A stretch of DNA of 64,000 bases from Bryoerythrophyllum caledonicum (lineage: Eukaryota; Streptophyta; Bryopsida; Pottiales; Pottiaceae): NCBI GenBank assembly GCA_963971425.1, contig OZ020525.1, forward strand, positions 12,840,187 to 12,904,186, given 5' to 3'. Positions 30,826 to 59,410 of this stretch are shown here, one piece after another. Each line of letters begins with the position of its first letter. Position 1 is the first letter of the stretch. The notes under the pieces were generated by a model. That model saw only the letters and a list, made by a program, of their open reading frames with translations, was not told the DNA's origin and did no database searches. The position numbers and the translations under genes are program-made.

Positions 30826-31990
30826 ATGACACCAAGTGAGGAGGACCTATTAGTGAAATACATTCATGACATGGCAACTCGCGGATTTCCACTGACATGG
30901 CTGCAATTGAAAATCAAAGTAGGGAGCATCGTGGAAGGGAGGCCAAATCCATTTAGTGAGGGCATCCTGAGAAATAGTTGGGTGCGTTGGTTTAAGAAAC
31001 AACATCCAGATATTGTGCTGCGAAGCGCACAGAAGCTGGAGCAAGTACGGGCCAGGGTGCTATGCCCGGAGAAGTGGCTAGATCACTTCATGAACCAGGT
31101 AGAGAAGGGGTGGGGGGTGTCACCATCAAATCGCCATCTTCTAATACTAGACGGACATAACTCTCACGTCACTCTAGATGTGATTGTGAAAGCAGGAAGG
31201 TCAGGCATAGACATGCTCACACTCCCCTCACATACTTTCCACGCTTGACAACCTCTAGACATTAGCTACTTCAAAACCCTCAAACAAGCATTTCGCATCT
31301 GTAGAGATGTTTGGACGATGGGCAATAGAGACAAGGGTGCAACAAAGGCTATTCTAGCAGGTTGGGTGTGTAACGCACTCAAGAAAGCATTCACAGAAAA
31401 AAAACATCCAAAGCGGCTTCAGATCCACCGTAATCTACCCGTTGAACCCGAACGCCATGGACTCAAAATATGGACCCTTGGAAGTGTTTGCGGACACCAT
31501 GGACACGCAAGATGAAGAAGAGAAGAACTATGACGTCGTGCTAGAAGAGTTCATGGAAGATCCATTCTCTGACGTCGAAGAGTGCTCTGAATCCCATGTG
31601 GACATTGACTGTGGCAGTGACTGCAAGCCAGGAGCTCCACTCGCTGGCCAAGGCGACGCGGTGTTGAGCCGGGAGCATAGGCGACGGAGCATCTGCGACC
31701 AGCTGCACCTCCCCATCGTGCCTGCGAGGCCGCAGAAGAAGAGGCGTGGTGAGACTTACGTGGACTACTCCAAGTCTATCAACCTAACAGATGACAGCCA
31801 CGTCCAGGATCTCAAGCGAATTGTTGCGCAGCGAGCTGTAGCAGCGGAAGTTGTTGAGATTGCAAGGACCAAGGCCAGCGAGCGGAAAAAGAAGTGTGAG
31901 CAAGAGAAAAAACTCAAAGTAGCAAGGCAAGCTAAGAAGTCCGAACAGAGAGGCATGAAAAGAGACTTGAAGAGTACAGGGAAGGTGTGA
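30826..31990 (+). pseudogene. Decayed pogo/CENP-B-like (Tc1-mariner) transposase
   Basis: The first ~95 codons match the DNA-binding HTH region of CENP-B/pogo-type transposases (EEDLLVKYIHDMATRGFP.. and ..NSWVRWFKKQHPDI). It then jumps directly to the second half of the DDE_1 domain: LLILDGHNSHVT, LPSHTFHA, then QPLDISYFKTLK. The middle of the catalytic domain, with its first Asp, is missing. A TGA at about 31246-31248 replaces the usual Leu between HA and QPLD. One extra A in an A8 run near 31397-31404 shifts the frame. After the shift the C-terminal tail resumes (YPLNPNAM..) and runs to 31990 as a charged, Lys/Arg-rich region. It has three independent lesions, so it cannot make an active enzyme. 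Confidence 0.85.
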
Positions 31991-37000: not shown

Positions 37001-38236
37001 AAGGAATATTGGCTCTTTGATTAATCCTCCACTCAGCTTCTGCAATAGCTGCAATTACCGAAGCAACATCGAAAATCATTCCACAAGTAGATTGATGGAG
37101 AATGTACACCACACCACAAATGACCAAACCACAATTGCTTCAAAATTCTTTCTTACCTCATCTTCATTCCATCTATCCAACACCTCACAACTTGTGTCAG
37201 TCAACCTCTTCAATACTTCTCGCAATAGCTCTTCTCGGCCCTTCCTCTCCAATTCCGCATGGCATACTCTTCCATGAAATCTCGTCACATACTCGTTACA
37301 AAGAGCTTTACATATGGAAGTTTTACCAATGCCACCCATCCCATACAATCCTACCAAAACCACTCCTTCACTCTTCTCAACTTCTAGCCTACTGATTTGG
37401 CCTTGAATCACCTGCAATTCAGCTCAATTGTACATATTTCAAACATAGTATCCAACAAAAGGATTACAAGAACACCATAGTGGATACAAAATGGTTCTTT
37501 CACAATATTTGTCAACATTCACTTTCAAGTTTTTCAAAACTTAAGGTTACCAAGTTCATTACACAACCTCTTCTTCAATTCTAAAAATGTCTAGATCATA
37601 CAACAGCTCAATGACACAAACTTCTCAAGAGTTATTCTTACCTCACATAATCGCGACCTCCCTTGTACATGCGAATCTTCAAGCCTTGTATCAAGTGGAA
37701 CCACTCCACATATCACATCAACAATGTCTCTTCGAAACTTCACTTCTCCCATTCCATCATACACCATGCTACTCAATGGCTCCAAATGCTTCAAAGCACC
37801 TTCCCACTCTTGCACGTCAATTCTCTTGTCCTTCAAGGCCAATTCATGCCAACATTCTTGCCATCCATTCCGCATTTGTGCATCACGAAACTCATCAATC
37901 GACAAGCCAAGAAAAACGGGCACAATTTTGAAGCCCGACTCCCTCTTCTTGGCTTCTCTCACCATCGCCACCAACTCTATCATTGTCCACTTCGACCGAG
38001 TGAAGAACTCGTCGGACAGAATCACTACTCCCACTTGACATTGCCGTATTGCTTCAAATATGTGTTGCGGAAAGTTCTCCCCAATTGGCAAGCTATCGCG
38101 GCGCTTGTCAAAGAAAGGCTGCCGATCCCAACGCTCCAAATCCACACATAGTTGCTCAACAAAATCTTTTTGAGCTCCGCTGTGGCTCAGGAATATCTTA
38201 TGCTTTGAATGGAAACCAACATCCCTAGTGTCTTCC
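34095..38236 (-). CDS. TIR-NB-ARC-LRR immune receptor, 5' end unresolved
   Basis: Intracellular receptor that senses pathogens. The exons are 38236-37642 (TIR), 37411-37157 (P-loop), 37048-36374 (rest of NB-ARC) and 36230-34095 (end of ARC plus LRRs), giving about 1,219 residues as seen. The TIR shows KIFLSHSGAQKDFVEQL and SKWTMIELVAM; the Glu of WxxxEL, the NADase catalytic position, is kept. NB-ARC has P-loop GMGGIGKT, kinase-2 LAVDNVSD, MVTSRS, a GLPL-like HPLTLDVLGK and IHD in place of MHD. The LRR region has about 20 units of the type L..L..L.L..C..L..LP. Exon 1 begins in phase 2, so an upstream exon carries the start. A frame at 39176-38886 (MDLVSGCFDKLLRKF..) is a candidate, but no donor gives the right phase. 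Confidence 0.88.
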
Positions 38237-40229
38237 CTGCATACACATAACAGTATGAAACTATTGTAACATTCAACATTTATGTGGCAGAATTGTATAC
38301 TCTCCCATCACTATGATAGCATTCAACATAAAATCAAAATTACAAGAACTTCCTTTGTGTTGGTTCACATTCCAAGTGCCATACTGCTACAATATCCATT
38401 CATCTAAGAGAGAATGCGGACCATTTAGCTAATGTTTTGTTGCGGACCGAAGCCTTGCCACTTGATTCTGCCATAATTTACCCTTCCAATCTGCAAAACA
38501 ACTCAACGTCGGCAACAAACATAAGGGGAAGGCCCGCTGTACAATCAAATCCTTTCACATTAACTTCCGCTATTGTCCATATCATATAAAAGACCTTATC
38601 AAAGACATGTTTCAGTCACAAGAAACTCAGTCCTCCGAACTAACTCAACAAGAATAAAAACCTAGACGTGTGCTAAAATCATTAACAGACTCTTTAGAGT
38701 TCTCAGGTGGGCCAAGACTGGGATCAAGAACCGCTGCAGCATTACTTAGAGAGGTAAGACTCGTCCACATGAATAGTTCAAGTGCAGGCGAATAAAAAGC
38801 AAGGAGAGCAATTTATGGCTCAGCACATTTCCCAGCTGAAATTGGGACAGGCATAACTTACACTGAAAGCGTTGAAGAAAATCCTTCAAGAGGTGTCTTC
38901 CGTGCTCATCCTGGGTACCAAACATGTTCCAACTTCCAAAAAGAAAGTCAAATTTCGAAGGACTTCTGCACACCGGACCTCATTTCTCTTAGCAAGCACA
39001 GACCTAAGAATCTCTACAAACATGCTCTCTAAAAACAGAATGGCCTCCTTATCCAAGGCATTGCAGCCTGTATTCCTCCATTCTCCTCCTACAAGTTGAA
39101 CACAGATGTAGCCCCTACCAATCTTGAGACTGAATTTCCTCAGCAGTTTGTCGAAACAGCCAGACACGAGATCCATTCCACTGCCATAACATACCCTCTC
39201 ACGAATCACACTTCAGTCCGCTCCGATCCACCACGCCACCTCCCAGCAGACCCTCGCCATTTCAACCTTCAGGACCAACCCCACCAAACCCTTCCTACCA
39301 AGCTCCTGCCAAATCCATCCACACAAAAGAAGCTCTCACCACCTACCAACACCAGGATTCAACGTGCCCAAACTAGATCACCAATCTAATCTCAAACAGT
39401 TTCTAACGAAGCTCTGAAACAATGTCGCGCAAGCGCCACAAACCCCAACTTGGAGTTGAAAGTGTCAAAGCCGACTCAACCGGATGCAATGTCGGAGATG
39501 GATGACTACCATTGGATGACGCAACTTGCACCCGCACTTCTCCGTTTTCGTTCCGATATCGTAGATCTAACTGCTCGAGGGTTTAGCTCTATAATCTATG
39601 ATAAGAGTGTAAATCCAGATCTGCTGGAGGGCGAGGGTTTAAGCGGAGCGGAGTCGGGAGAGCGAGAGCGACGGGACACGAGCCATCACACTTGGCTCGC
39701 GTGAGCGGTGCACATTCTCAGAAGCGTTTCGTGGCGATGGCGTTCGCAGTGTGTCCTGCGGCGGTGGTGCAAACACAAGCGTAGGTGCTCTTCAGAGTTT
39801 GAATGCTTGAACTACGGATGGTGTGGTGCATCTTCTAGGGTTGAGCTTGTGCTGCAGTATCGTATTATCCGGTGTTTTATCAAAGTTGAGTTGCCACGAC
39901 AAGTGATAGTAAAAATTAAATAAACCATGCTACTTAGCAGATGGCTTTAATTGACAATTGAAAGAATGTTGATAACAGAAAGAATCAATGTCGCCACATA
40001 CACATATACATGTGCTGTACAAGCCCTACCTACAACTACAACAACTGCACTATTGACAAACTAATATACAACTATACGAGAGCACAAAACAATTGTTCAG
40101 CTATAAGCGACAGTGAAGGCTGGTAGGATGTGCACCATCACACACTTCAAGTGACCAGCAGAAAGGTTGCTTCACTAAAACAACCTAATCAGGACTCTAG
40201 TCTGAAGGGGACGACGACACGGTCACGGT
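38237..40229. other. Upstream of the resistance gene; possible first exon
   Basis: A reverse frame from about 39176 to 38886 encodes a plausible protein start (FSLKIGRGYICVQLVGGEW, then LDKEAILFLESMFVEILRS). Its composition is natural and it may be an upstream exon of the resistance gene, or an independent fragment. From 39400 to 39900 the DNA is GC-richer but shows no family. 39900-40229 is the 3' flank of the clpD fragment. No other gene is seen. Confidence 0.35.
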
Positions 40230-41557: not shown

Positions 41558-41597
41558 ATAGAACTTGTTGGTTTGAGGAAAGAGTTAGGATAATTGT

Positions 41598-41759
41598 TTG
41601 TGTAGAGCTCTCATGCATGGATTGTCTGCAGACGTATGATATTTGGAGCGGTCGCATGCACTCAAAACTGGTTGGGCATTATGATAACGTCAACTGCTGT
41701 GCCTTTCTTCCGGAGGATCAGGTACTACTCATTCAGTGTTGTAGTGGCTACACATTCAG
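41598..41759 (+). pseudogene. Duplicated CSA fragment, exon 7 (left of the transposon)
   Basis: Starts within CSA intron 6 and includes exon 7 (41632-41721), which is intact and identical in coding sense apart from silent or minor changes. It then runs into intron 7, where the transposon interrupts after TTCAG. Without exons 1-6 it cannot make CSA. Confidence 0.93.
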
Positions 41760-41791
41760 AACACGCAATTAAGCAATTATGCACTTGGCCA
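41760..41791 (+). repeat. Left terminal inverted repeat
   Basis: The first 27 bases match the right end perfectly, inverted. One mismatch follows and then four more matching bases. A subterminal AGTGCACTTGG at about 41798 is also mirrored near the right end. Confidence 0.92.
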
Positions 41792-42334
41792 TATAAAAGT
41801 GCACTTGGGTACAACGGCGGCCATTGCGAACAAAAGTGGCAAAATTGCAAAATTGCAAAAAAAAAAATCAATGAAAAAAAATGATTTCCAAAGAAAAAAA
41901 ATTGAGCTTCTACAACAATATTACGTACAATCATGGTTGTTAATATTGAAAGCGGTTTTTTGGCATTTTCAACTAATTTTTGGTGGCCCCTCGTTAATAC
42001 TAGATAAATCTGTATTTAATAAAGTTTCACAATATTTCAAAGATAGATTTGAAGGATTGTAGTATACAAACCGGCGTAATCACAGAAAAACATAGTTTAT
42101 GCAAGGGTTGGCAGTTGATTAAAAGATATTCTACGTAGTATATAATGCATACAATGGTGGAAATTAAATATAGATTCTTCTACATCTGGACTTAGCACCA
42201 ATAGTAAAATTACCTTTACTCTATAGGATTAATGACATAACGTCTTACATCACCCTTAGAATATACTACTCTTACACGTACACTATATATCAATTACCAT
42301 ACACAACTAGTATACTCTCATAAAGGCACACTAT

Positions 42335-45300
42335 CTACTCTACAGAATTTAGGGCTGCTTGCAAACAGTCGTCATCGATAGCTTCGGTTTGCATTGCAAT
42401 ATATTGTAGGATGTGAGCCTTTGCCGATTGAAGAATGCGAATCCTGCTTTCAACTTGCACTCCAAATACATTGCGCTTTCTCCACCCGCTCGCCCCAGAC
42501 ATGGTTCTTTCCAGTGTGTCTACCCATGAAAAAATGCATGAATCTTTCTCTACCCAACTATGGCTCTCCCCAGATGGCTCCCAGAATGAATCCATGCAAT
42601 TTGCATACCGTTGTGCAGAAGACCCATGTCCATCAGCAACCCCCCTTTGGATGATGGGCCAATACCAACAAACCTTAATCTTAAGTCTCCATCGGTTTTT
42701 TCCTTCCTCAATCACTTTTCCCACATAGAATGGTACACCGCCTTCTATCTCTGCTTGATCAACACTCAAGGCTACAAACTGTCCACAACGGATATCAGAT
42801 TGTGGATTAAATGGTGGAAATGGGTCGTGATTACCTTCATACATTGCTCCTTCTTCGGCGCGTTGCTCAACATAGTTGCGCTCTGTTTGTTGTGCCCTAC
42901 GCACTGCTTGATTAGAGGGTCTTCCTCTACGAGGACCAAAGTATCCTCGAGCCTCGGCATTTGGAAGCATGGTCACTACCTGCTCTACAACATCTATCTC
43001 GCGATTTTCTTCACTTGCACCATCCATTACATCCAAAGATGCGCTCCCTGTAGGTTCGGTGTTGGAAAACTCTGAAGGCCAAAACGGTGAGGAACGATGC
43101 TCATTGCTACGGTCTTTGTGTGGAAATTCAGCTAAATAGAGTTTCAATCTTTCAGCCTCTACTTTTGCCTCACGATTCTTGTCCTCATGCTGCAACCTTT
43201 GGATGCACCTTTCTTTATATACAATGAAGTCATCCAACGCCTTCAACTCCCGTTCATCCGCTCCAAATACTTCCGCAAACGCTGGTCGCTCATCCCTACT
43301 TGGCAACGACCTCAAAGTTTTCGTCCCTGCCTCCGGTCCCCATGGATCCTTGCAATAATGCTTGTGTTGTACTCGAACCACACGAGTCCCTTCTCGATTG
43401 TCCATATAGAATCGCATGTGGTGCGGAAATGTTATGCCCACCAATGAATCCTGACCTGTCAGTAAGTGAGGAGTTATAAACAATTTCCAATCCCATACAT
43501 TCTCTAGCAGCCGGGCGCTAACAAATGCCTCTGTAGGGGATGTTCCTTGTTCTGTAAGACTCATCATTTCCTTCAACGAATCCACGTCCGACCTCTTCAA
43601 CGTATTTGAAATACAACTGAAGCGTTGATCAATATCTTCGTGTGTATGGCCCACTATAAGAAAAGATAGTTCCACCTTCTGAAAAAACCCCAATCCCACC
43701 AATGTAGCACATAGAGCAAACATATAAATGTTTTTGTTCTCACGCGTGCAGTTGTCGGCCTGAATCCGCAATGTTGGTGGCAAAAAGCCCCTCCTCCGCA
43801 GCACATCCCCTATCACGTACAACAATGTACTCACGACTTGGTTGCTATCGTGTTTGTGGTGAGCCCGAACCACACGTCGCAATATAAATCAATCCCATGT
43901 ACAAGAGCACCACACAGATGGGTCTTCACAAATCGGTGTTCAATATTCTTCACAGTCTGACGCATCCTCGGTACCATGGTCGTGTTTTGGTCCATGCCAT
44001 CCACGATGATGCACATGTACAACTCAGGGCTAATATAACACGACCTCTTGAATATCCAATAATGCCTACGTTCTTCCATCTGGTTGCGTAGATGCAACAT
44101 AAACAACTCCTTTATCTTTATCCTTGCATCCGCATTGGTGGTTCCTTCCATAGCACATTTATACTCCCAACAATGATAACACTTTGAGAATCTCGAGAAT
44201 GGAGGTACCTGAACGTGGGGATACTTGATGCGCCACAACCTCCGAAACGAACTCATAGAAATGGTTTCTCCATTACAAATTCTCTTGACCTCCTCGTTCA
44301 CGTAATTGAATACATCAAATTTGGCTGTATTCATAGGAAGGAGAATGAGAGGCACCACTTCGTTGTCACTCTTACGGCGAAAACAACGATGAGGTTGAGG
44401 ACAACCAGCTTCATCGACAAACGATTTGAAGCAAGCCTCTGCTGCAGACACTCTAGTACTCTCTCTTATCGGATCTGAAAGGGTATTGCCGTGAATCGAT
44501 GTCACTCTTCCATATATTAGACAATCCTTCTTCAATTGCTTAAAGCGCCTCTGTGAATATCCAATCCAAGAGCGTAGCAAGCATTGCAAACTTCTTTCCC
44601 ATCTAACTTTGTTACAAACTTGTCTCGACGAGTTCCTTCCGTCCTTGTGTAAAAAGAAACCAGCATCTGTCTCATCCACATACTTCGAACTGAAAACTCA
44701 TTACCCCATGCATTATATCGCATGTCCAATAGATACCTTGCTGGAACGTCCCTCAAACAATTGCGTTTGCATCCTCCTTGTGCCATTGCAATTTGCACGC
44801 TTCTAAGGGATACCTTAGCTGGTGCAGCTTCTGTCAATGATGGCTCCCTTGAATGTCTCCTTCTCCTATTTTGCATAGAATATGGACGACGTGTTGGTCT
44901 AACATAAGCAAATCCATCTACATGGGGCAAATCTTGGATACTCGAGGGAGTAGATTGGGAAAACGGCGAATTTTCATCTATGGCGTTTGAAGCATGACTA
45001 CTACGTCGAGACCTCTGGGTGGATCCTGATGTGTTGATAAACTCAGGAAAATCAAATTCTGTGGCCATCACTTGTGTAGGCGCTATCTGTGATCCAATGT
45101 CGCCATGGACACCTGTGATATCGGGTTCTACAACCACTACACGTAGCAAAGACCGATGCCAACGAATGATCAAGCCCACACACATGCCAAGGCGTTCTCC
45201 TACAATCTCTTCGGTCCAATGCAATGCATCATCCACCCTAGTGATACGCACCGCCACCTCGAATGGGAACAACTTTGACCCATTCAACTCCATGCCACTT

Positions 45301-45530
45301 TTCAATGCATGCTCCCTAGTTGCTAAGCCCACCACATCTCCTCTCTCAGAAAGCAATTCTACTACCGTTTCTAATTCAGATGTTATGATATCAACAGATC
45401 TCTGTTGAATTTGCCTTCCACGTGCTGCTCGTACTAATCGGGCCCCCACAGAGCTATTGGAAAGCATATTATCCCTTTGGATGTGTGGCCGTATCGAAGG
45501 AGTCTGAATCGTGCGGCTCTCCATTATCAC
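42335..45530 (-). pseudogene. DUF7869-type, DDE-transposase-like gene with two frameshifts
   Basis: Three consecutive reverse frames (45530-44532, 44679-43831 and 43882-42335) read as one protein of about 1,060 residues. The N-terminal third is variable. Then come CKRNCLRDVP, GKEVCNACYALG and, after a -1 type break near 44565, GYSQRRFKQLKK. Next are FRRLWRIKYPHV with CYHCWEYKC, and YMCIIVDGMDQ, the likely first catalytic Asp. After a second break near 43885 follow HKHDSNQVV, QADNCTRENKN (second Asp) and VGHTHEDIDQRFS. This order is that of DUF7869 proteins, which I recall as having an RNase H-like, transposase-like character. The frame joins are exact in content, so each break is a single-base indel, or an assembly error. 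The C-terminus is acidic and Arg-rich. Confidence 0.8.
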
Positions 45531-45742
45531 TATTCAAAAAATAGGAACATTATGGCTGCACATTAGTCAAAATACATGTACTAATTGTTAACCTTTAAAG
45601 CACCATTCATCTGATAAAAGATATGTTTCTAAACACATATTTACAGTTCAAAATATGATGATGATATTGGACCTTTTGATGAAACAAGTTTGAAATAAAA
45701 AAATTAAGAATTTTTAGAGCATGAACTCCTTGCACAGAGTCT

Positions 45743-46645
45743 TTAACCCGGAAGATACAATGACAGTTTTACACCAAAAACACTTTAAAATTGTTGGATT
45801 CCAGCGCAATGAACAAAAAAAGAAACAAAAACTTTTATCTCTACTTTTGACCGTAGAATCTCAATTAAGACTTATTCAATAAACTTTGACCGCACGGATT
45901 GAAAAATTATAGTGTTTGAAGTCAAGCAAATGGTTCATTTTGTTCCCTGCATGCAGTGGATCATTAGACTTTGACTTCACTTGGTGTCAATATTTTGCAG
46001 TACAGAAGGTCTAAATCCATAACCATCTTGTTAAGCATGATGTTAGTTCCTTGTACACCAATTTTCAAAACAACTATGCAAGGAGTGGAAGTTTGGAAGT
46101 TGTTAATTCACAGTGTCATTTTTTGTGAACTTAATATGTTTTAGATTGGTAATTCAAATCGTCAATAAGAAGGTTTACACCACATAATGTTGTGGAAAAA
46201 ATGAAAAGTGAAATATAAAAAATTATCTAGGTTTTAATTGAAAAACAAGAAGTTTTTTTGGTACCTTGTCCAACACCGACTGACAATGTGTGAAATGTTT
46301 GACTTGGGTTGGTATGCTATTTTTCGCCAAAAACAAGAACTTATTTTGACAATATCAAGGGAAATTATATTACTTGCAAGTACTGAAAATCTCACATTCA
46401 ACATAGTGTCTTAGCAAAAGTTTTTGGACGTGCTCGACTTGCCTACTCTCCCCATTTGAAATTCAAAACCCTAAATTGTTTTGATCAAATGTCCAATTTA
46501 GGTAAAAAATTGTTTTCCCACTAAAGTCTTCGTAATGCATTTCTATAGAAAAAATTTCAAAGAGAAATGGTGGAAATTGACACCATAGGAACTTGACCGA
46601 ACTTTCAAAAAGCCCATTTTGGACACTTGATCCTTTAGGGGTTAA
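45743..46645. mobile_element. TTAA-flanked element nested in the large transposon
   Basis: TTAA at 45743-45746 and 46642-46645. The ends are CCCGGAAGATAC at the left and GATCCTTTAGGGG at the right, weaker than in the sister elements. Its interior (GACCGTAGAATCTCAATTAAG.., ..CGCACGGATTGAAA) is related to 48637-48900 and to 24230-24500, so the family is dispersed through the window. Confidence 0.5.
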
Positions 46646-47753
46646 ATATGCTACACCTCTTCTGCATCCCTAAACATTGGTGTAAATAGAACTTGTGGCT
46701 TTTTTTGACATGATGATAACGAATCTAGATCATGTGTGATGCGATTTTTTGAATCCAAGTGAACTGAAACGAAGGGAATCCACTGAACTTAGGGAAGAAA
46801 ATCAACCATGTTGTCTACTTGCTATTACCGACACCATTGGAACTTATTACAATCGCTAATAAAAAAAAAGTTTCTACATCCACATAAAGGTTATTCTACA
46901 AACAACATAGTATAGAAGATCAATCAACAATCAATCTTAAACTTGTATAAAAATAAATGTTTACCTCAAGATACGTTGCAGGTGTTAGCGGTATACACAC
47001 AGATGCTTGATGGCGTTCAACATTTAATCACCATTCCGTCGTTGTTGAACATGTTTTTTAACCCTTCTCACTTTACCTGCACCACATGCATAAAATTTAT
47101 ACGGTAAACTATGCAATAAAACCTCCTAAGTATCATCGTATTACATATACCCCAAAATTTTAATAAAATATGTAAAAAATTTAAACATAAGGAGGAACAA
47201 AGCAAAAGGTCCAAAGTTCAAAAGTCAAACTTTGACTTGTAAACTTGAGGCACAAGGTTCCAACATGGATATAAGGTTTCTATGCAAATCTGGAGGTCAT
47301 TTCTCTTCCCAGTTTCTAAGGTGAGCTCTCTTGCATTCGAAACCTTAAGCCATGTGCATTTTTACTCCATTCACTACTTTCTGTCAACTTTGTGTACTGT
47401 GTAGATTGAAGGAAATTTGCACATCGAGGAGATAATAGCGAATTTGGTAAGCTTCTAACTTTGTTTCAATTCTGCATAGAGGGAACTTAGGGATAGGTAC
47501 ATGATGATTGAAGTTCAGTGAGAGTTACGATAGAGTTAGGTAAATACCAATTTCTGAATACACAAATGAGGACACCAACTTCAGTATGTACAAAATTGCA
47601 ACGTTGAATGAATACACATACAACAGTCAAGAACTAGTAAGTTAAACCTTCGTTCAACTGAAATAATTACACCAACACCATACAAATTGAAGTCAATCTG
47701 AAGTTAATAATATGGCACTAAATCCTTAGTACGGCACATCACCGCACAACCTG

Positions 47754-47877
47754 AAACCCTAGCCGCCACACCCAGGCACCCAAACCCTAGTCGCCGCACA
47801 CAAAACCTAGCCGCCGCAACTAAACCCTAGCCGCCGCAACTAAACCCTAACTGCCGCAGCCAAACCGTAGCCGCTGG
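47754..47877 (+). repeat. Degenerate AAACCCTAGCCGCCGCA tandem repeats
   Basis: Six to seven units of about 16-18 bp with the core AACCCTAGCCGCCGC. The AAACCCTA part is the plant telobox, often found in promoters of highly expressed genes. Here it lies between the two divergent transposon genes. Confidence 0.75.
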
Positions 47878-47924
47878 TCCCACGAAGTTCACGCGACGCC
47901 TGATGGAGTAACCGTGGACTGGAG

Positions 47925-48350
47925 GTGTGCGCGCGCACACCCCCAACTGCTGCTGCTCCTGCACCCACCCAAAAACGCCCCGCCGCAGCGAGAGCTGCGA
48001 TTCAAAATCTTAGGACTCGGGGCGCCGCGCAAGCGCAGGCTGCTCAGGCGCAGCGCCAAGGCGCGGCGCGGGCGCCATCTCTCACACCTCCCAATCACTC
48101 TCACATGTTCATCTCATACCTCCCAAACTATTGCTTGCATTTCTCACACCTCCCAAACTTCTCTCCTTCTCTCTCCCATACCCTAGACGCCCACTACTTC
48201 TCTCCCTCACAACTCCCCTCCATTCCTCTCCTTCACAACTCTACTCTCTTCACCCTCTCAAGCCCTTCTCTCAAACCCTCCTCCAAACCCTCTCTATCAC
48301 TCACAGCCTCCCTCAAACTACTGCCAGGGGTGTGCGCGCGCACACCCCCT
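47925..48350. repeat. Pair of GC palindromes flanking a C/T-rich tract
   Basis: GGTGTGCGCGCGCACACC occurs at 47925-47942 and again at 48330-48347, where it is extended to GGGGTGTG...CACACCCC. Each is a perfect palindrome with a CGCGCG core. Between them lies strand-asymmetric DNA rich in CTCCC and CTCTCC. Confidence 0.85.
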
Positions 48351-48872
48351 TGTAGGACTACCCAACTTTGCAAAGGATTGATATCCTCCATTGATACCCA
48401 CATTTCCAAAACCCTAATAGCAAACCCTAATTGATACCCGACTTAGATACCTCGGTTGATAACTTGGAATTGGTACCTATGAACTCATACCCTGGTGGTG
48501 ATACCCTCGCTATTGATACCCAATATACCTTGGTCCATAAATGATGTTGAGAACATCTCAACCCAAAATCTTTAAAAATGCTTGTTTTAGTGCATTTAGC
48601 AAGGAAGACAAAATATAGTTTTTTTGGTCATTTTAACCGTAGGATCTTAATCCTTACCTATTAATTAATATGCTCACAAAATTTCATAAATTTTCACCGC
48701 ACGGATTGAAAGATTATAATGTTTGAAGTAGTGAAAAGCCTCATTTTCTTCACTGCGTTTTCTGGATCAGCAGACTTTGATTTCAATTGGTGTCACATTT
48801 TTGCACTATAAAAGGTCTCAATTAATTACCACAATGTTAAGGATGATGTTAATTTGCTATATACCATTTTTT

Positions 48873-49934
48873 AGAGTTAGAAAAATAGTGTAGCATATTC
48901 AAAAAAATTGTGCAATGAGTGGGGGTTCAAAAATTCTCAATTCACATTATGTTTTTTTGTGAACTTGATATCGTTTGAAATGAGAATCCAAATGGTCAAT
49001 ACAAAGGTTTACATCACATAATGCCGTAGGAAAAATCAAAAGTGAATCAAACAAAGATCTCAAAGTTTTATGTGGAAAGGTAGAAGTTTTTTGGTACTCT
49101 CCTCAAAAATAAGTGACAATGATTGAAAATTATTGACTTGGATTAATATGCTATTTCACCAAAGAACCAAGAACATGCTTAACATGATGGTATTGGATGT
49201 AGATCTTGTGTAGTTTAAAAGATTTTAGAGGTAGACAAGGGGTGTAGCATATTAAACAAAAAATTGCAATGAGTGGAGGTTCAAAAATTCCCAAGTCACG
49301 TTATGTTTTTTTTTTAACTTGATATCGTTTGAAATGAGAATCCAAATGGTCAATGAGAAGTTTTACATCGCATAATGTTGTAGGCAAAATCAAAAGTGAA
49401 TCATACGAAGTTCTCAAAGTTTTATGTGGAAAAGTAGAAGTTTTTTGGTACTATCCTCGAAAATGTGTGACAATGTGTGAAAATGATTGACTTGGATTAA
49501 TATGCTATTTCACCAAAGAACCAAGAACATGCTTAACATGATGGTATTGGATGTAGATCTTGTGTAGTTTAAAAGATTTTAGAGGTAGACAAGGGGTGTA
49601 GCATATTAAAAAAAAAATTGCAATGAGTGGAGGTTCAAAAATTCTCAATTCACGTTATGTTATTTTTTGAACTCGATATCGTTTGAAATGCGAATCCAAA
49701 TGGTCATTGAGAAGTTTTACATCGCATAATGTTGTAGGCAAAATCAAAAGTGAATCATACGAAGTTCTCAAAGTTTTATGTGGAAAAGTAGAAGTTTTTT
49801 GGTACTATCCTCGAAAATGTGTGACAATGTGTGAAAATGATTGACTTGGATTAATATGCTATTTCACCAAAGAACTAACAACATGCTTAACACGATGATA
49901 TTGGATTTAGATCTTCTGTGGTGCAAAAGTTTTT
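48873..49934 (+). repeat. Three tandem 354-bp units
   Basis: The anchor AGAG(G/T)TAG occurs at 48873, 49227, 49581 and 49935, exactly 354 bp apart. Units 2 and 3 are nearly identical and unit 1 is more diverged. They contain GTGCAATGAGTGG, TTTGAAATGAGAATCC and TTTTTTGGTACT. A second copy at 53566-54627 is part of the assembly duplication. A diverged single unit is at about 46080-46400. Confidence 0.88.
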
Positions 49935-50061
49935 AGAGGTAGACAAGGGGTGTAGCATGTTCAAAAAAGTTGTGCAATGAGTGGAGGTTCAAAAATTCTT
50001 ATTCCATACTAATAGTGACTATCATTTTGTAATGATATACAAGTTTTTTGAGTGTTGCGTT

Positions 50062-52572
50062 ATGGCACCACCAAATATTGATAGAATCTGGGAGAGCCAC
50101 GGTTGGTGGATCGCGGAAGTGGATGAGTCGAGCGCCTTCTTATGGGTGACGGATTATCCCTTTGAGCTGGGGAAGCGTACATCGGCGTTGGGGAAGAGTT
50201 TTGGCAAAATCCAGGCAATCACTCTTCGACGTGATGATATGGTATACGTTACTTGCGCAGTGGGTCCAGGTCAATCGGAGGTGAAGACTTCTCTTTCGAA
50301 GAAGTTGCTTCTTGCACCTGTCCCTTTGAATCTTCTTCAAAATCCAGGTCAGGTGAAATTCCTCAAATCATTGCAGACGTTTTGGTTGAACATCTCTCTT
50401 GCGGTACGTACCGCTAGACACAACGTCTTAGGCTGTTTAGCGTTATCACCGGAGATGGTGCTGAAGGCTAAGAAGATTATGGAGGAACATATTAGATATG
50501 AAGCATTTCGGGAGAGGGACCCATCACGTGCGACAACTCAAGCCCCACTAGCTGAACCAGAAGATACAGAAGTTTATCGAATTCTTGCTGAGCCGTTGCA
50601 ACTGGATTGGCGACCACTGGAGGGGGGGAGAGGAAGTGGAGGCCAACATCCCACCACAACTTCTGAGGTACAAACATTACCGAATCCTCCATTAACGAGT
50701 AGACGTCCTACGAAGAGGCCACGACGTGTTGACAATGATGAAGCTTCTGGTTCAAGAGAAGGCCCATCAAGTTTGGATCCAAGTGGGAGGAGGTTGATTG
50801 GGAGAAGTGCAAGATCTGGTGGCAGGATTCCTAGGTCGGGGCTCAGGACGTCTGATGGTCATCATAGGGCCCCTACATCTACACCGGGAGATTCAGCTGA
50901 TTTGTCAGCCATGGCGCCGGAGGAAGAAGATTTTCACAACCTTCTAGACAATATACCAGAGGATTTTGAAGACAATGCAGAGATACCACAGGATGTTCCA
51001 ACTCCTATGAATTTAAAAGCACCAGTGCCTACAACAGAGGAGATTGCGAAAGGATCAGTGTGGGGGAATTTTGTGTTTATGGCACACATGGACCGCATTG
51101 TCTCTGTAGAGAATCCGGAAACCAACCACCGGGTTTTATCACAGAAGAGGGTCAGAGAAGTATTCAACCGCTTACGAGACCCAGAATCCGCGACTCGGGT
51201 GAGTAGATTGGTACTTCGACCGATCAGATACATCGTGCATACTACCACCGATGATGGTGTCGTTGAGAAGGAAGAGCTGCCATTTCCGTTGGTAGGTACC
51301 GCACGAGAGTTTGAGCGCATGTTCATTGCACACGGGAGTGCTTCTGCACAGGATGCCATGGGATCCCAATATTCTTGGCTTCAAGATCATATCATTTGGG
51401 AACCGGTGGATGGGCAACACATAGTAGCAGCTTGTAAGTTTGCACAACAGCAGTGGAGAGATGGTACTATGCCTTTAAACGAGTATCTGGACACGTTTGA
51501 GCGGCGGGAGGCCTCTTTTGTGGTGTATGATGATCGTCGCTTTTACATTGAGAAGTCTGCGCGGATCAACGTGGCGGAGTTCCAGAGACATTCATATTCT
51601 ACCATGGAGGAGGATTTGAGGAAGATCCGTCAGATTTGGGATCTATACGGGAGGCCTGATAGCACACTACGTGCGGACGATGCACGCAGGGCAGTTGCTT
51701 TGGTGAGTGCGGCAAGTGTAGTGCATAAGTTGCCCAAGGGGGATGGAGTTGTCACGGTGAAGAGGTTGGCCAAAAACATGGACGATCTGACCAATCATGC
51801 ATGGAATCCGAGCAATGACTGCTTCGAAGCTATCATTCAAATATGCAAGGACTACAAAGACGGCATTCTCTTTTACAACAAGGAGGAAGAGGACAAGTGG
51901 AAAGACATGGCGAGGAAGAAAGAGTTGGATCCAAATGTGGACGTACGACCAACAAGAAAGGAGATGACGCAGAATTGGTTGAGGCCTCTAGGTAGGGTTC
52001 CGAATCCATATTATCTTCGGTTGGCAAAGTCTGCTGCAGCGAAGCCGGTGAGGGAGGATGGAGTAAGACCTTCTCAAGCATATTACTTCGATGGTGTAAA
52101 AGACAAGAATCCACATCCTCGTACGATTGCCGGTGTGGTTGACCGATATCAGAGACGAGAAGCTGTGATGAATTCGATCCGTTGGTTGATGGTGGAGAAC
52201 AAGGAAAGTACACCTGATTCCATGGAAGACTTCTTTCGTATCCGTGTAGCGAAGTATTTTCCGAGGAGTAGTGCACAACTTGATACCTTTGGGAAGCTTT
52301 TGAATGCTGTCACGAAAAAAACTTGGAGTGCTCCTGTGCGGGGGAAGGTGTCTAAACTGGAAGACATAGGCTACCTCATCCCCCCTTCCGTCAGGTTTCA
52401 TTATGGTGACATTGCAGCAGGGGGGCGTGGATACATTGGACTGTCCGTGGATGTGGGAGAATTGGCTACTGCTAATTGGGAATGGCAGATGGAAGTCAAG
52501 AGGCCAGGGCAGAGCGACACAGAGAATCTTCTTCCGGTTCGGTGTAGAAGAGGATTATTCCGCACCGACTAC
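50062..52572 (+). CDS. Large transposon-borne ORF, first copy, cut by the gap
   Basis: Identical to the first ~837 codons of the complete copy at 54755-58696. It stops at the N run. Any translation past the gap into 53127 is in a meaningless frame of the C/T-rich tract. It is probably the same locus as the complete copy, seen twice. See that entry for description. Confidence 0.8.
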
Positions 52573-52772
52573 NNNNNNNNNNNNNNNNNNNNNNNNNNNN
52601 NNNNNNNNNNNNNNNNNNNNNNNNNNNNNNNNNNNNNNNNNNNNNNNNNNNNNNNNNNNNNNNNNNNNNNNNNNNNNNNNNNNNNNNNNNNNNNNNNNNN
52701 NNNNNNNNNNNNNNNNNNNNNNNNNNNNNNNNNNNNNNNNNNNNNNNNNNNNNNNNNNNNNNNNNNNNNNNN
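52573..52772. other. Assembly gap, 200 N
   Basis: A run of exactly 200 undetermined bases, typical of a scaffolding placeholder of unknown true length. Confidence 0.99.
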
Positions 52773-54754
52773 TCTCACACCTCCCAATCACTCTCACATG
52801 TTCATCTCATACCTCCCAAACTATTGCTTGCATTTCTCACACCTCCCAAACTTCTCTCCTTCTCTCTCCCATACCCTAGACGCCCACTACTTCTCTCCCT
52901 CACAACTCCCCTCCATTCCTCTCCTTCACAACTCTACTCTCTTCACCCTCTCAAGCCCTTCTCTCAAACCCTCCTCCAAACCCTCTCTATCACTCACAGC
53001 CTCCCTCAAACTACTGCCAGGGGTGTGCGCGCGCACACCCCCTTGTAGGACTACCCAACTTTGCAAAGGATTGATATCCTCCATTGATACCCACATTTCC
53101 AAAACCCTAATAGCAAACCCTAATTGATACCCGACTTAGATACCTCGGTTGATAACTTGGAATTGGTACCTATGAACTCATACCCTGGTGGTGATACCCT
53201 CGCTATTGATACCCAATATACCTTGGTCCATAAATGATGTTGAGAACATCTCAACCCAAAATCTTTAAAAATGCTTGTTTTAGTGCATTTAGCAAGGAAG
53301 ACAAAATATAGTTTTTTTGGTCATTTTAACCGTAGGATCTTAATCCTTACCTATTAATTAATATGCTCACAAAATTTCATAAATTTTCACCGCACGGATT
53401 GAAAGATTATAATGTTTGAAGTAGTGAAAAGCCTCATTTTCTTCACTGCGTTTTCTGGATCAGCAGACTTTGATTTCAATTGGTGTCACATTTTTGCACT
53501 ATAAAAGGTCTCAATTAATTACCACAATGTTAAGGATGATGTTAATTTGCTATATACCATTTTTTAGAGTTAGAAAAATAGTGTAGCATATTCAAAAAAA
53601 TTGTGCAATGAGTGGGGGTTCAAAAATTCTCAATTCACATTATGTTTTTTTGTGAACTTGATATCGTTTGAAATGAGAATCCAAATGGTCAATACAAAGG
53701 TTTACATCACATAATGCCGTAGGAAAAATCAAAAGTGAATCAAACAAAGATCTCAAAGTTTTATGTGGAAAGGTAGAAGTTTTTTGGTACTCTCCTCAAA
53801 AATAAGTGACAATGATTGAAAATTATTGACTTGGATTAATATGCTATTTCACCAAAGAACCAAGAACATGCTTAACATGATGGTATTGGATGTAGATCTT
53901 GTGTAGTTTAAAAGATTTTAGAGGTAGACAAGGGGTGTAGCATATTAAACAAAAAATTGCAATGAGTGGAGGTTCAAAAATTCCCAAGTCACGTTATGTT
54001 TTTTTTTTAACTTGATATCGTTTGAAATGAGAATCCAAATGGTCAATGAGAAGTTTTACATCGCATAATGTTGTAGGCAAAATCAAAAGTGAATCATACG
54101 AAGTTCTCAAAGTTTTATGTGGAAAAGTAGAAGTTTTTTGGTACTATCCTCGAAAATGTGTGACAATGTGTGAAAATGATTGACTTGGATTAATATGCTA
54201 TTTCACCAAAGAACCAAGAACATGCTTAACATGATGGTATTGGATGTAGATCTTGTGTAGTTTAAAAGATTTTAGAGGTAGACAAGGGGTGTAGCATATT
54301 AAAAAAAAAATTGCAATGAGTGGAGGTTCAAAAATTCTCAATTCACGTTATGTTATTTTTTGAACTCGATATCGTTTGAAATGCGAATCCAAATGGTCAT
54401 TGAGAAGTTTTACATCGCATAATGTTGTAGGCAAAATCAAAAGTGAATCATACGAAGTTCTCAAAGTTTTATGTGGAAAAGTAGAAGTTTTTTGGTACTA
54501 TCCTCGAAAATGTGTGACAATGTGTGAAAATGATTGACTTGGATTAATATGCTATTTCACCAAAGAACTAACAACATGCTTAACACGATGATATTGGATT
54601 TAGATCTTCTGTGGTGCAAAAGTTTTTAGAGGTAGACAAGGGGTGTAGCATGTTCAAAAAAGTTGTGCAATGAGTGGAGGTTCAAAAATTCTTATTCCAT
54701 ACTAATAGTGACTATCATTTTGTAATGATATACAAGTTTTTTGAGTGTTGCGTT

Positions 54755-57700
54755 ATGGCACCACCAAATATTGATAGAATCTGGGAGAGCCACGGTTGGT
54801 GGATCGCGGAAGTGGATGAGTCGAGCGCCTTCTTATGGGTGACGGATTATCCCTTTGAGCTGGGGAAGCGTACATCGGCGTTGGGGAAGAGTTTTGGCAA
54901 AATCCAGGCAATCACTCTTCGACGTGATGATATGGTATACGTTACTTGCGCAGTGGGTCCAGGTCAATCGGAGGTGAAGACTTCTCTTTCGAAGAAGTTG
55001 CTTCTTGCACCTGTCCCTTTGAATCTTCTTCAAAATCCAGGTCAGGTGAAATTCCTCAAATCATTGCAGACGTTTTGGTTGAACATCTCTCTTGCGGTAC
55101 GTACCGCTAGACACAACGTCTTAGGCTGTTTAGCGTTATCACCGGAGATGGTGCTGAAGGCTAAGAAGATTATGGAGGAACATATTAGATATGAAGCATT
55201 TCGGGAGAGGGACCCATCACGTGCGACAACTCAAGCCCCACTAGCTGAACCAGAAGATACAGAAGTTTATCGAATTCTTGCTGAGCCGTTGCAACTGGAT
55301 TGGCGACCACTGGAGGGGGGGAGAGGAAGTGGAGGCCAACATCCCACCACAACTTCTGAGGTACAAACATTACCGAATCCTCCATTAACGAGTAGACGTC
55401 CTACGAAGAGGCCACGACGTGTTGACAATGATGAAGCTTCTGGTTCAAGAGAAGGCCCATCAAGTTTGGATCCAAGTGGGAGGAGGTTGATTGGGAGAAG
55501 TGCAAGATCTGGTGGCAGGATTCCTAGGTCGGGGCTCAGGACGTCTGATGGTCATCATAGGGCCCCTACATCTACACCGGGAGATTCAGCTGATTTGTCA
55601 GCCATGGCGCCGGAGGAAGAAGATTTTCACAACCTTCTAGACAATATACCAGAGGATTTTGAAGACAATGCAGAGATACCACAGGATGTTCCAACTCCTA
55701 TGAATTTAAAAGCACCAGTGCCTACAACAGAGGAGATTGCGAAAGGATCAGTGTGGGGGAATTTTGTGTTTATGGCACACATGGACCGCATTGTCTCTGT
55801 AGAGAATCCGGAAACCAACCACCGGGTTTTATCACAGAAGAGGGTCAGAGAAGTATTCAACCGCTTACGAGACCCAGAATCCGCGACTCGGGTGAGTAGA
55901 TTGGTACTTCGACCGATCAGATACATCGTGCATACTACCACCGATGATGGTGTCGTTGAGAAGGAAGAGCTGCCATTTCCGTTGGTAGGTACCGCACGAG
56001 AGTTTGAGCGCATGTTCATTGCACACGGGAGTGCTTCTGCACAGGATGCCATGGGATCCCAATATTCTTGGCTTCAAGATCATATCATTTGGGAACCGGT
56101 GGATGGGCAACACATAGTAGCAGCTTGTAAGTTTGCACAACAGCAGTGGAGAGATGGTACTATGCCTTTAAACGAGTATCTGGACACGTTTGAGCGGCGG
56201 GAGGCCTCTTTTGTGGTGTATGATGATCGTCGCTTTTACATTGAGAAGTCTGCGCGGATCAACGTGGCGGAGTTCCAGAGACATTCATATTCTACCATGG
56301 AGGAGGATTTGAGGAAGATCCGTCAGATTTGGGATCTATACGGGAGGCCTGATAGCACACTACGTGCGGACGATGCACGCAGGGCAGTTGCTTTGGTGAG
56401 TGCGGCAAGTGTAGTGCATAAGTTGCCCAAGGGGGATGGAGTTGTCACGGTGAAGAGGTTGGCCAAAAACATGGACGATCTGACCAATCATGCATGGAAT
56501 CCGAGCAATGACTGCTTCGAAGCTATCATTCAAATATGCAAGGACTACAAAGACGGCATTCTCTTTTACAACAAGGAGGAAGAGGACAAGTGGAAAGACA
56601 TGGCGAGGAAGAAAGAGTTGGATCCAAATGTGGACGTACGACCAACAAGAAAGGAGATGACGCAGAATTGGTTGAGGCCTCTAGGTAGGGTTCCGAATCC
56701 ATATTATCTTCGGTTGGCAAAGTCTGCTGCAGCGAAGCCGGTGAGGGAGGATGGAGTAAGACCTTCTCAAGCATATTACTTCGATGGTGTAAAAGACAAG
56801 AATCCACATCCTCGTACGATTGCCGGTGTGGTTGACCGATATCAGAGACGAGAAGCTGTGATGAATTCGATCCGTTGGTTGATGGTGGAGAACAAGGAAA
56901 GTACACCTGATTCCATGGAAGACTTCTTTCGTATCCGTGTAGCGAAGTATTTTCCGAGGAGTAGTGCACAACTTGATACCTTTGGGAAGCTTTTGAATGC
57001 TGTCACGAAAAAAACTTGGAGTGCTCCTGTGCGGGGGAAGGTGTCTAAACTGGAAGACATAGGCTACCTCATCCCCCCTTCCGTCAGGTTTCATTATGGT
57101 GACATTGCAGCAGGGGGGCGTGGATACATTGGACTGTCCGTGGATGTGGGAGAATTGGCTACTGCTAATTGGGAATGGCAGATGGAAGTCAAGAGGCCAG
57201 GGCAGAGCGACACAGAGAATCTTCTTCCGGTTCGGTGTAGAAGAGGATTATTCCGCACCGACTACATAGAGTTGGGTAAACCATGTTTGTGGGTGATTGA
57301 TTGTCGACGTGGCGGTGGGAGGCATGAAGATGGTCATTGGGGAGACGCCCAATTATCCGCAGCTTTTGCACAGCTGACATTATGGATGGCAAATATTGAA
57401 CGATGGAACGTCATCTTCTTGTTACCAGCGGCTGCGTATGCCAATGAGGAGTTTTTCACGAAGGTGAAGCTTCCAGAGGGATGTACTATGCGACGTGGAT
57501 GCTGGGCTTTTGATCCCAACTCGGTTAATCCCTATGCTCTTGATTTTACAGAGAATAGGCGTCTGGAGCAAGTAGTACAACCGATTGGCGATGTTGTGAT
57601 TTGTATGCAGCACCCTGTGGGTACATCTCCTGGCCCGAACTATGTTTCTGGAGACGTTCCACTTCCACTTGTATTCTTAGATCACTGGAGTGAGGCACGC

Positions 57701-58696
57701 CAACCCTCTGAAGTTGATTCACTTGAGAGATCTCCATTAGAGCTCGCAAGACTAGTGGGCTCATACTTGCCCCGTGGTTGGGGTTTAGTGGCGTGTAACA
57801 TATCTACGGCCATTCCCACGATCCTTGAAGGAGATTTCCAGGGATCTGAGGTTTTTATCATTGACGATTGTACAGACAGAGTTTCATTCCTGTACAATGA
57901 GTTGTCCGACAATTTCCAAGGACAACTGTTGGTCAGGACTGGTGGAACAAGTACTGGTTGCAACATCGTACCTGAGACCGAAGATGCGGTTGGTGGAGTG
58001 AGGAATGAAGAGGACAATGAGGATGGAGGTGGTTTACATGAGAGATTGCCACGTTCATGTACCACTGAAGATTTTTCATCTGGCAGTGATTCAGACGCCG
58101 ATGAGGATGGAGAGAGAATTCCATCAACACAACGGACGGTGGGAGATACTTCAGGGGCGACGTCTGCAACACCTACAGAGAGGATGCAAGATACAGGTGT
58201 AGTAGATGTTAGTTTGGCGGCAGGGGCAGGACGGGGGCGTACATTTGATGGTTTAAGGTTGGAGATGGAGGAAGAAGGATTGGATTCATGTGAATTTTTT
58301 TCGGTGCAGAGGAGGATTCGACAGCCTTCGATGCCTCCTCAATCAGAGCCTGTATCGGAGACACAAGAGATGTTCGGAGGTACTCAGAGTGATACCGGAC
58401 CAGGTTTGCCTCCCATTCCAAGATCTAGCGTATCTGAGGACATCATTGCATTTCAGGGGGCCTTCTCATCAGAGCGAGAGATGTCCTTCAATGCAAAGGA
58501 TGGCTTTTTCTATAATGATGACAAGGTAAGGCATACGCGGGAGGGTGTTCCTGGCAATTACCGATTTGTTGAGTGTGCGTCCATTGGCATCGAAGATGTG
58601 GGAGATCGTCCAGTGGAGGATCATGAACTATCCGCTATGGTAGGTAGCGCCATTGGACACGTGGAGGGAGTCGTTCCGCCAGCAGATGAGCTGTGA
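54755..58696 (+). CDS. Unrecognised ~1,313-residue transposon protein; ParB-like and degenerate methylase-like regions
   Basis: A single uninterrupted frame. I prefer the Met at 54755 (MAPPNIDRIWESHGW) because the 27 codons before it read through the end of the tandem array. Residues 1-150 form a compact N-terminal domain. About 170-330 is low-complexity, with RRPTKRPRR basic runs and acidic patches. About 440-540 has VDGQHIVAACKFAQQQW followed by a segment with IEKSARINVAEF, the pattern of ParB/Srx-like folds (GQH in place of GxxR). About 830-1040 holds IDCRRGGGRHEDGHWG, GDVVICMQHPVG (951-954 where a DPPY motif would sit) and SPLELARLVGSYLPRGWGLV (from 993), resembling a decayed DNA methylase. 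The tail is Ser/Asp/Glu-rich. Function is unknown; the domain assignments are inference. Confidence 0.75.
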   Translation: MAPPNIDRIWESHGWWIAEVDESSAFLWVTDYPFELGKRTSALGKSFGKIQAITLRRDDMVYVTCAVGPGQSEVKTSLSKKLLLAPVPLNLLQNPGQVKFLKSLQTFWLNISLAVRTARHNVLGCLALSPEMVLKAKKIMEEHIRYEAFRERDPSRATTQAPLAEPEDTEVYRILAEPLQLDWRPLEGGRGSGGQHPTTTSEVQTLPNPPLTSRRPTKRPRRVDNDEASGSREGPSSLDPSGRRLIGRSARSGGRIPRSGLRTSDGHHRAPTSTPGDSADLSAMAPEEEDFHNLLDNIPEDFEDNAEIPQDVPTPMNLKAPVPTTEEIAKGSVWGNFVFMAHMDRIVSVENPETNHRVLSQKRVREVFNRLRDPESATRVSRLVLRPIRYIVHTTTDDGVVEKEELPFPLVGTAREFERMFIAHGSASAQDAMGSQYSWLQDHIIWEPVDGQHIVAACKFAQQQWRDGTMPLNEYLDTFERREASFVVYDDRRFYIEKSARINVAEFQRHSYSTMEEDLRKIRQIWDLYGRPDSTLRADDARRAVALVSAASVVHKLPKGDGVVTVKRLAKNMDDLTNHAWNPSNDCFEAIIQICKDYKDGILFYNKEEEDKWKDMARKKELDPNVDVRPTRKEMTQNWLRPLGRVPNPYYLRLAKSAAAKPVREDGVRPSQAYYFDGVKDKNPHPRTIAGVVDRYQRREAVMNSIRWLMVENKESTPDSMEDFFRIRVAKYFPRSSAQLDTFGKLLNAVTKKTWSAPVRGKVSKLEDIGYLIPPSVRFHYGDIAAGGRGYIGLSVDVGELATANWEWQMEVKRPGQSDTENLLPVRCRRGLFRTDYIELGKPCLWVIDCRRGGGRHEDGHWGDAQLSAAFAQLTLWMANIERWNVIFLLPAAAYANEEFFTKVKLPEGCTMRRGCWAFDPNSVNPYALDFTENRRLEQVVQPIGDVVICMQHPVGTSPGPNYVSGDVPLPLVFLDHWSEARQPSEVDSLERSPLELARLVGSYLPRGWGLVACNISTAIPTILEGDFQGSEVFIIDDCTDRVSFLYNELSDNFQGQLLVRTGGTSTGCNIVPETEDAVGGVRNEEDNEDGGGLHERLPRSCTTEDFSSGSDSDADEDGERIPSTQRTVGDTSGATSATPTERMQDTGVVDVSLAAGAGRGRTFDGLRLEMEEEGLDSCEFFSVQRRIRQPSMPPQSEPVSETQEMFGGTQSDTGPGLPPIPRSSVSEDIIAFQGAFSSEREMSFNAKDGFFYNDDKVRHTREGVPGNYRFVECASIGIEDVGDRPVEDHELSAMVGSAIGHVEGVVPPADEL

Positions 58697-59262
58697 GCCG
58701 TGGAGCTATATACTATAGTAGAGCATGCACGCAGTTTAGGTGGCAAGTACGTTAGTATTATGCAGTTTGAGATGTGTCTATCGTTCGGTTGGTGGTATAT
58801 ATTTATATATTGGGTGGTCCATATGATATGTTTGATTTTAGAATTCCTCAGCAATAGTGTGGAATTGCTTGATTATGTATGTTTTTGCATTATAAAATAC
58901 AGTGAGATACTTTACACTGTCTTAGGAATTTGCATATATATTTTTGTATCTCTTACACATTGTATTTGTAGTGCAGTACTCTAAAATCCTATAATAACTC
59001 ATAACACATTTATAATCTCTTTGGGCACATGATCATAATTTTGTAGCATGATTTGCAAACTAGAGTAGAAATCATATATTTTCTAAAAAAAGGTAGCGAA
59101 TGTAAAAAAAGTATTACTGATATGAGCATAAAGATGCCAATGTATGATACGACAAACACCAAAAAAAATTGACTAAAAACATACTAAACTTTTGCCAAAT
59201 TTTGATTTAAAAAAAAGTTATGAGCAAATAACTTGCGGCTTTCTACCACCAACTAGTGCACT
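58697..59262. other. Downstream flank of the large ORF up to the transposon end
   Basis: AT-rich, with no supported gene. It presumably carries the polyadenylation region of the large ORF and the subterminal part of the transposon. Confidence 0.5.
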
Positions 59263-59294
59263 TGGCTAAGTGCATAATTGCTTAATTGCGTGTT
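59263..59294 (-). repeat. Right terminal inverted repeat
   Basis: The inverted complement of 41760-41791, with one mismatch. The host sequence resumes at TCAGTTGTCTG (59295). If the target duplication is the 5-bp TTCAG, the element ends one base earlier. Confidence 0.92.
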
Positions 59295-59410
59295 TCAGTT
59301 GTCTGTAGAGCCAAGGATAGGCCAGGAATTCAACAATTGTGCTACCTGTTGAATTCAGGGAAGTAGAGTTTCATGGGCTTGGTGCTGAGCTAGTGAATTC
59401 TTATTTGCAG

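Follow-up and report, generated by a model that had tools for sequence, protein, structure and literature searches.

Within a 64,000-nucleotide stretch of the genome of the moss Bryoerythrophyllum caledonicum (contig OZ020525.1 of assembly GCA_963971425.1, positions 12,840,187 to 12,904,186 of the forward strand; hereafter the window), positions 41760–59294 are occupied by a DNA transposon insertion with proven boundaries, which carries a gene for a DUF7869 transposase-like protein (gene 1) and a second, long gene on the opposite strand (gene 2). We assign the insert to the large cut-and-paste DNA transposons, most likely to the Sola1 group of the Sola superfamily, with gene 2 as a helper gene, and give this assignment a probability of roughly 0.68. 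Elements of this kind have most likely been described already in algae, and what is new would then be the evidence that the second gene is a long-standing partner of the transposase.

The ends of the insert are terminal inverted repeats of 32 bp, located at 41760–41791 (plus strand, starting AACACGCAATTAAGC) and 59263–59294 (minus strand), which differ at one position only (31/32 paired, 97% complementary). They are bordered on both sides by TCAG (41756–41759 and 59295–59298), the target-site duplication (TSD). Because parts of the host gene region occur twice in the window (18131–27606 and 41182–63335, 93–97% identity), the window also contains the unoccupied site: the left flank, 41593–41759, corresponds to 22978–23144 at 97% identity, and the sequence from 59295 onward corresponds to that from 23141 at 93% identity over 3.4 kb. 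The two alignments overlap by exactly TCAG (23141–23144), and there is no footprint. An initial annotation, based on the letters of the window, had proposed near-perfect 32-bp inverted repeats, a TSD of either TCAG or TTCAG, an empty site within the window, and boundaries that could be proven from the sequence itself. Ends, duplication and unoccupied site all agree and uphold this description with the exception of the five-base alternative; since other copies show the additional T to be the terminus of the element, the TSD is TCAG, and TTCAG was discarded.

The element is present in many copies. In the 437-Mb assembly of 894 contigs, the first 501 bases recur in at least 40 copies at 96–100% identity and the last 501 bases in at least 40 copies at 97–100% identity, and the terminal 30-mer, with up to three mismatches, has 1,852 matches (916 + 936) against none for the reversed control. 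Ten full copies, hand-picked among the plus-strand matches to the first 501 bases, were fetched as 20-kb stretches. Eight of them contain both ends and both genes, which establishes the coupling of a DUF7869 gene and a second gene between the same ends that the initial annotation had put forward; the stretches of the remaining two (L013 and L023) yielded no more than the left end and gene 1. Exact 4-bp TSDs are seen in nine of nine cases, i.e., in the window insert and the eight copies (TCAG, CATT, ACAA, GTAA, CCTA, TGTT, GTTG, TGTT and CTAC). Differing boundaries in other copies had been named as grounds for doubting the element, but the other copies share the same ends and the same TSD length.

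Ten further end pairs, likewise hand-picked and 2.2–12.4 kb apart, comprise five with exact 4-bp TSDs and five in which three of the four bases are equal; they count as nine independent ones because L048/L049 and L050/L051, both among the latter five, represent a single insertion read both ways. Eight of the ten span only 2.2–6.0 kb and could not accommodate both genes; three of these eight have an exact TSD. Judged from their span, these short pairs are likely to be deleted derivatives that still move.

A second family, AACACCGGTT..., is represented by an element of 10,998 bp (L029, TSD TATT), with ends of 19 bp that start AACACCGG and have the AACAC terminus in common with the window family. 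The L029-type end, with at most one mismatch, occurs 23 times in the genome (control, 0). Five more end pairs of this family, which are all the inward pairs with both ends listed, L029 itself excluded, have exact 4-bp TSDs throughout (GGAA, ATGA, CTAA, CTAA and TATG), making six of six for the family. Taken over both families, the 20 exact TSDs represent 16 different 4-bp words, and TTAA is not among them. The third base is A or T in all 14 exact TSDs of the first family, but a target preference of this kind was rejected in view of ATGA in the second.

The element family has moved recently: across the gene-1 region, two pairs of copies from separate loci share 99.9% identity. Ratios of nonsynonymous to synonymous substitution rates (dN/dS), calculated for pairs hand-picked among copies with open frames, are 0.18–0.30 for gene 1 (six pairs of intact copies) and 0.27–0.54 for gene 2 (four pairs), so that selection seems to maintain both proteins. 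With respect to distribution, the 65-Mb contig C1 has 28 exact copies of the terminal 30-mer, 22 of which lie in the first 12.8 Mb, two between 12.8 and 62 Mb, and four in the last 3.2 Mb; C1 thus contains a long interval almost devoid of the element, unlike the 40-Mb contig C2, along which there are at least 72 exact copies. Elsewhere in the window, 187 bp at 28523–28708 show 71% similarity to a non-coding repeat within the element (45879–46065), and are perhaps the remnant of a related element.

The 17.5 kb between the two ends, taken as the true length in the initial annotation, is probably not the real length of the element. Self-comparison identifies a 4,493-bp segment (48080–52572, plus strand) that recurs letter for letter at 52773–57265, with one copy on each side of an assembly gap of 200 N (52573–52772). 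The first of the two segments holds a cut copy of gene 2 (49981–52572), and a 354-bp tandem array of 3.2 units, which directly precedes gene 2 (53562–54692, plus strand), has its artefact twin at 48869–49999. Removal of gap and repeat leaves 12,842 bp, against 12.2–15.3 kb, gap letters included, for the eight other copies that were completed. A 200-N gap is present in ten of the ten other fetched copies, and the gap position was mapped in six of these: both gap flanks fall near window positions 47,700–48,550 in four (L011, L015, L017 and L019), L025 could be placed on one side only, and L009 could not be placed. Because such gaps recur in other copies, several of them at one site, the 4,493-bp repeat is most simply explained as an assembly artefact, which would leave an element of about 12.8 kb. 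A GC-rich stretch (61–67% G+C at 47,800–48,100) lies close to the common gap position, and this suggests a sequence that defeats assembly.

Gene 1 extends over 42335–45533 on the minus strand. The DUF7869-like transposase gene named in the initial annotation is confirmed by a profile search, in which the open reading frame (ORF) at 42335–43888 matches the Pfam family PF25273 (DUF7869) with an E-value of 1.5e-45; the domain segment corresponds to 43385–43861 (residues 10–168 of this ORF). In the window copy, two frame changes disrupt the gene into three overlapping ORFs (44532–45533, 43831–44697 and 42335–43888), and with its transposase gene broken, this copy would need help from intact copies in order to move. 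A single open frame of 1,066–1,077 amino acids is found in eight of the ten fetched copies. No other transposase, integrase, helicase or nuclease model of Pfam was matched in the scanned genes at E up to 1 and 3; the five remaining Pfam matches are at chance level (E 0.056–0.18) and concern unrelated families, and searches of PDB sequences with both proteins returned either no match or chance-level matches only (E 0.43–2.8). The word DUF7869 is used in no paper of the searched literature, and the link between this domain and the element may therefore be unpublished under that name.

Outside the moss, no relatives were confirmed in viral contigs, and prokaryote genomes contained one DUF7869 locus (L035, CAKZGI010000425.1), on a contig binned as the cyanobacterium Trichormus. 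This locus has an open frame of 915 amino acids (DUF7869 E 1.5e-51; 26% identity in the best segment) and is probably a eukaryotic contaminant, which may be linked to the fern Azolla.

The transposases of Sola elements have an RNase-H-fold core with three aspartates (DDD). In our alignment of gene-1 proteins (A2), an aspartate is invariant in each of VDGMDQ, a DN motif and IDQ, and all three are kept in L035 as well. The candidate triad would consist, in L011 numbering, of D512 or its neighbour D515 (VDGMDQ), D594 (QADN) and D636 (IDQ), a choice that we infer, since other residues are also invariant. The residues that precede IDQ vary (HTHED, HTHSD and HTHDH), and the glutamate of HTHED was rejected as the third catalytic residue because it is missing in L032 and L035. 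In a structure model of low confidence (mean predicted local distance difference test score, pLDDT, 50.5), the three aspartates are placed, in turn, on a strand, directly behind a strand and at the start of a helix, an order that fits RNase-H-fold transposases.

Gene 2 (54674–58696, plus strand) is an ORF of 1,340 amino acids, in keeping with the second protein of about 1.3 kilo-residues that the initial annotation had placed between the same ends. It is open over 1,341–1,348 amino acids in four of the eight copies that hold it. Against Pfam, NCBIfam and PDB sequences the protein has no match with E up to 1, and nothing of weight was obtained with gene 2 against PHROGs or with its PVDGQH block alone against PADLOC. 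Two blocks were recognised by eye, the PVDGQH block and a C-terminal DCR block. The former (IIWEPVDGQHIVAAC / IIFEPVDGQHLVHAC) is kept between gene-2 proteins that are 28–34% identical, and by eye it resembles the ParB/sulfiredoxin fold in its DGQHR form. For the C-terminal part our guess, guided by a published analogue and the DCR block, is a diverged DNA methyltransferase.

The association of the two genes extends beyond the window family. In this genome, 150 DUF7869 matches were listed of 3,610 candidates, and none were found in 14 control genomes. Six further DUF7869 genes are all open (1,044–1,087 amino acids), four of them 36–46% and two 84–91% identical to L011. The transposase of L029 is 36% identical to that of the window family, and its element contains a gene-2 homologue in the same layout (31.5% identity over 222 amino acids, E 1e-21; 25% over 246 amino acids, E 6e-14). 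When the window gene 2 was used as query, a listed DUF7869 match lay within 20 kb of 23 of the 35 scored copies, in every case upstream, on the opposite strand and 5.4–8.2 kb away; the window's own gene 2 is counted among the 12 partnerless copies because its broken DUF7869 gene is not among the 150 listed. Use of the L029 gene 2 as query gave 85 rows, which reduce to 79 places once five second fragments and the artefact twin of the window are dropped. A listed DUF7869 match lies within 20 kb of 36 of these 79 places, upstream and on the opposite strand in 34 of the 36, compared with 0, 2 and 1 of 79 in the shifted-position controls. The paired places include gene-2 relatives of 30–41% identity, one of which lies 13.6 kb from a DUF7869 gene that is L031-like by score and frame length only. 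A failure of the two genes ever to co-occur between the same ends, also named in advance as grounds for doubt, is thus not what is observed. Judged from sequence identity and gene layout, gene 2 is a long-kept partner of the transposase across distant relatives in one genome.

The Sola superfamily as a whole is characterised by 4-bp TSDs, a length that is also found here; in common with giant Sola1, the moss element moreover has a long second gene on the strand opposite to the transposase. Land plants are among the hosts given for Sola, Physcomitrella Sola1 being the example (PMC9033089), and the remark in the initial annotation that it knew of no named plant superfamily with such a combination of ends, target size and gene pair is wrong or overstated. 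Sola1-1_Ec32 of Ectocarpus is 21.5 kb long, is present in 1,989 copies of which two are intact, and carries, opposite to the transposase, a gene for a 1,104-amino-acid ParB-like and DNA methyltransferase protein; similar proteins are reported there for transposons of green and red algae (PMC12477816). The moss element resembles Sola1-1_Ec32 in exceeding 10 kb, in combining a transposase with a long opposite-strand gene, and in its high copy number; the second protein comprises 1,104 amino acids in Sola1-1_Ec32 and 1,340, with a PVDGQH block, in the moss element. It differs in its plant host, in its length of about 12.8 kb, and in that the ParB and methyltransferase domains lack profile support. 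Furthermore, the gene-1 frame is open in eight of ten fetched copies, compared with the two intact copies of Sola1-1_Ec32, and the gene pairing is seen here across several diverged lineages. Physcomitrella Sola1 belongs to the Sola group and also has a moss as host; the passage that lists it mentions no accessory gene. Sola2 elements with Fanzor1 (PMC3627910) are similar in having 4-bp TSDs, a long transposase (888 amino acids) and two genes, but differ in their ends of 12–21 bp, their AT-rich targets of the AWWT type, and the Fanzor identity of the second gene. Because TSD length, size and layout match published giant Sola1, this is the best filing for the element.

That the elements with DUF7869 and AACAC ends instead constitute a separate, unnamed plant superfamily, which merely shares the 4-bp TSD with Sola and gained a ParB-like gene independently, is in our judgement unlikely. 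In Pfam the core figures solely as a domain without an assigned function, the searched literature is silent on DUF7869, and the TSDs are neither AWWT, as given for Sola2 (PMC3627910), nor one fixed word, all of which would be in line with such a superfamily; however, the match with published Sola1 comprises TSD length, giant size, the opposite-strand ParB-like gene and host group together.

A number of observations weigh against the assignment to Sola1 with a helper gene 2. The link to Sola1 is based on TSD length, size, gene layout and host group, and not on transposase homology. The gene-1 model is weak, with all three aspartates in segments below pLDDT 50, no profile in the libraries searched recognises ParB or a methyltransferase in gene 2, and the structure model of gene 2, covering 750 residues, is unusable (mean pLDDT 34.6). 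For 43 of the 79 gene-2 places, none of the listed DUF7869 matches lies within 20 kb, and two of the 36 paired places have the wrong orientation; the 43 partnerless places do not show absence, because only 150 of the 3,610 DUF7869 candidates are listed. Moreover, gene 2 is broken in four of the eight copies that hold it, and no gene 2 was found in the 10 kb upstream of L030, L031 and L032, divergent DUF7869 genes whose element ends were not located in the fetched flanks either. These last two observations, along with the end pairs too short for both genes, would also suit a gene 2 that is captured host cargo and not part of the transposition machinery. We consider such an origin improbable, since gene 2 keeps its orientation and side even between elements with a transposase identity of only 36%, 34 of the 36 listed partners share one layout, and dN/dS is below 1.

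CACTA (EnSpm) elements have CACTA termini, a 3-bp TSD and a Transposase_21-type protein, and Kolobok and piggyBac elements duplicate TTAA. Placement in Academ, Ginger, CACTA, Kolobok/piggyBac or KDZ has very little probability, since the ends are AACAC and not CACTA, the exact TSDs are 4 bp and never TTAA, the scanned genes match none of the other transposase, integrase, helicase and nuclease families of Pfam, and, although the TSD of 3–4 bp given for AcademX (PMC10045372) can equal that observed here, Academ elements encode a nuclease or helicase, whereas no XPG nuclease or helicase match was obtained at the above thresholds.

For a Sola1 transposon with a helper gene, the following mechanism can be proposed. 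Gene 1 would encode the transposase, with DUF7869 as a putative RNase-H-fold catalytic core of the DDD type. This transposase would bind the inverted ends starting with AACAC, excise the element, and join it to target cuts staggered by four bases, whereby 4-bp TSDs would be formed. Gene 2, divergently transcribed in the other half of the element, would provide a helper with a ParB/DGQHR-like block and a possible methyltransferase, and this helper may bind or mark the DNA of the element, either against silencing or for synapsis.

Three observations concern neighbouring sequences. Long ORFs on the minus strand of the window at 34095–38307 are, by eye, like a TIR-type NBS-LRR resistance gene, and on the plus strand an ORF at 31358–31990 opens with residues (GFRSTVIYPLN) that, again by eye, look like the last part of a pogo-type DDE transposase. 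In L036, which lies upstream of the L031 transposase, a 12-mer recurs every 1,995 bases in what seems to be a long tandem array.

The present results connect DUF7869, a Pfam domain that lacked characterisation, with a transposon that has been active recently and whose ends and target length are proven. As at least 40 near-identical copies and many hundreds of end matches are present, the genome of this plant offers a setting for transposition tests. The results also indicate that a ParB-like gene, described until now as an accessory of algal transposons, stayed with its transposase over deep divergence. A more far-reaching proposal, which we put forward tentatively and regard as doubtful at present, is that DUF7869 transposons represent a two-component system of ancient origin: the ParB-like protein would be an obligate, co-inherited partner of the transposase and would act as a DNA clamp or as a self-methylating anti-silencing factor. 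If this were true, a land-plant transposon superfamily would have a prokaryote-type partition/methylation module within its core machinery.

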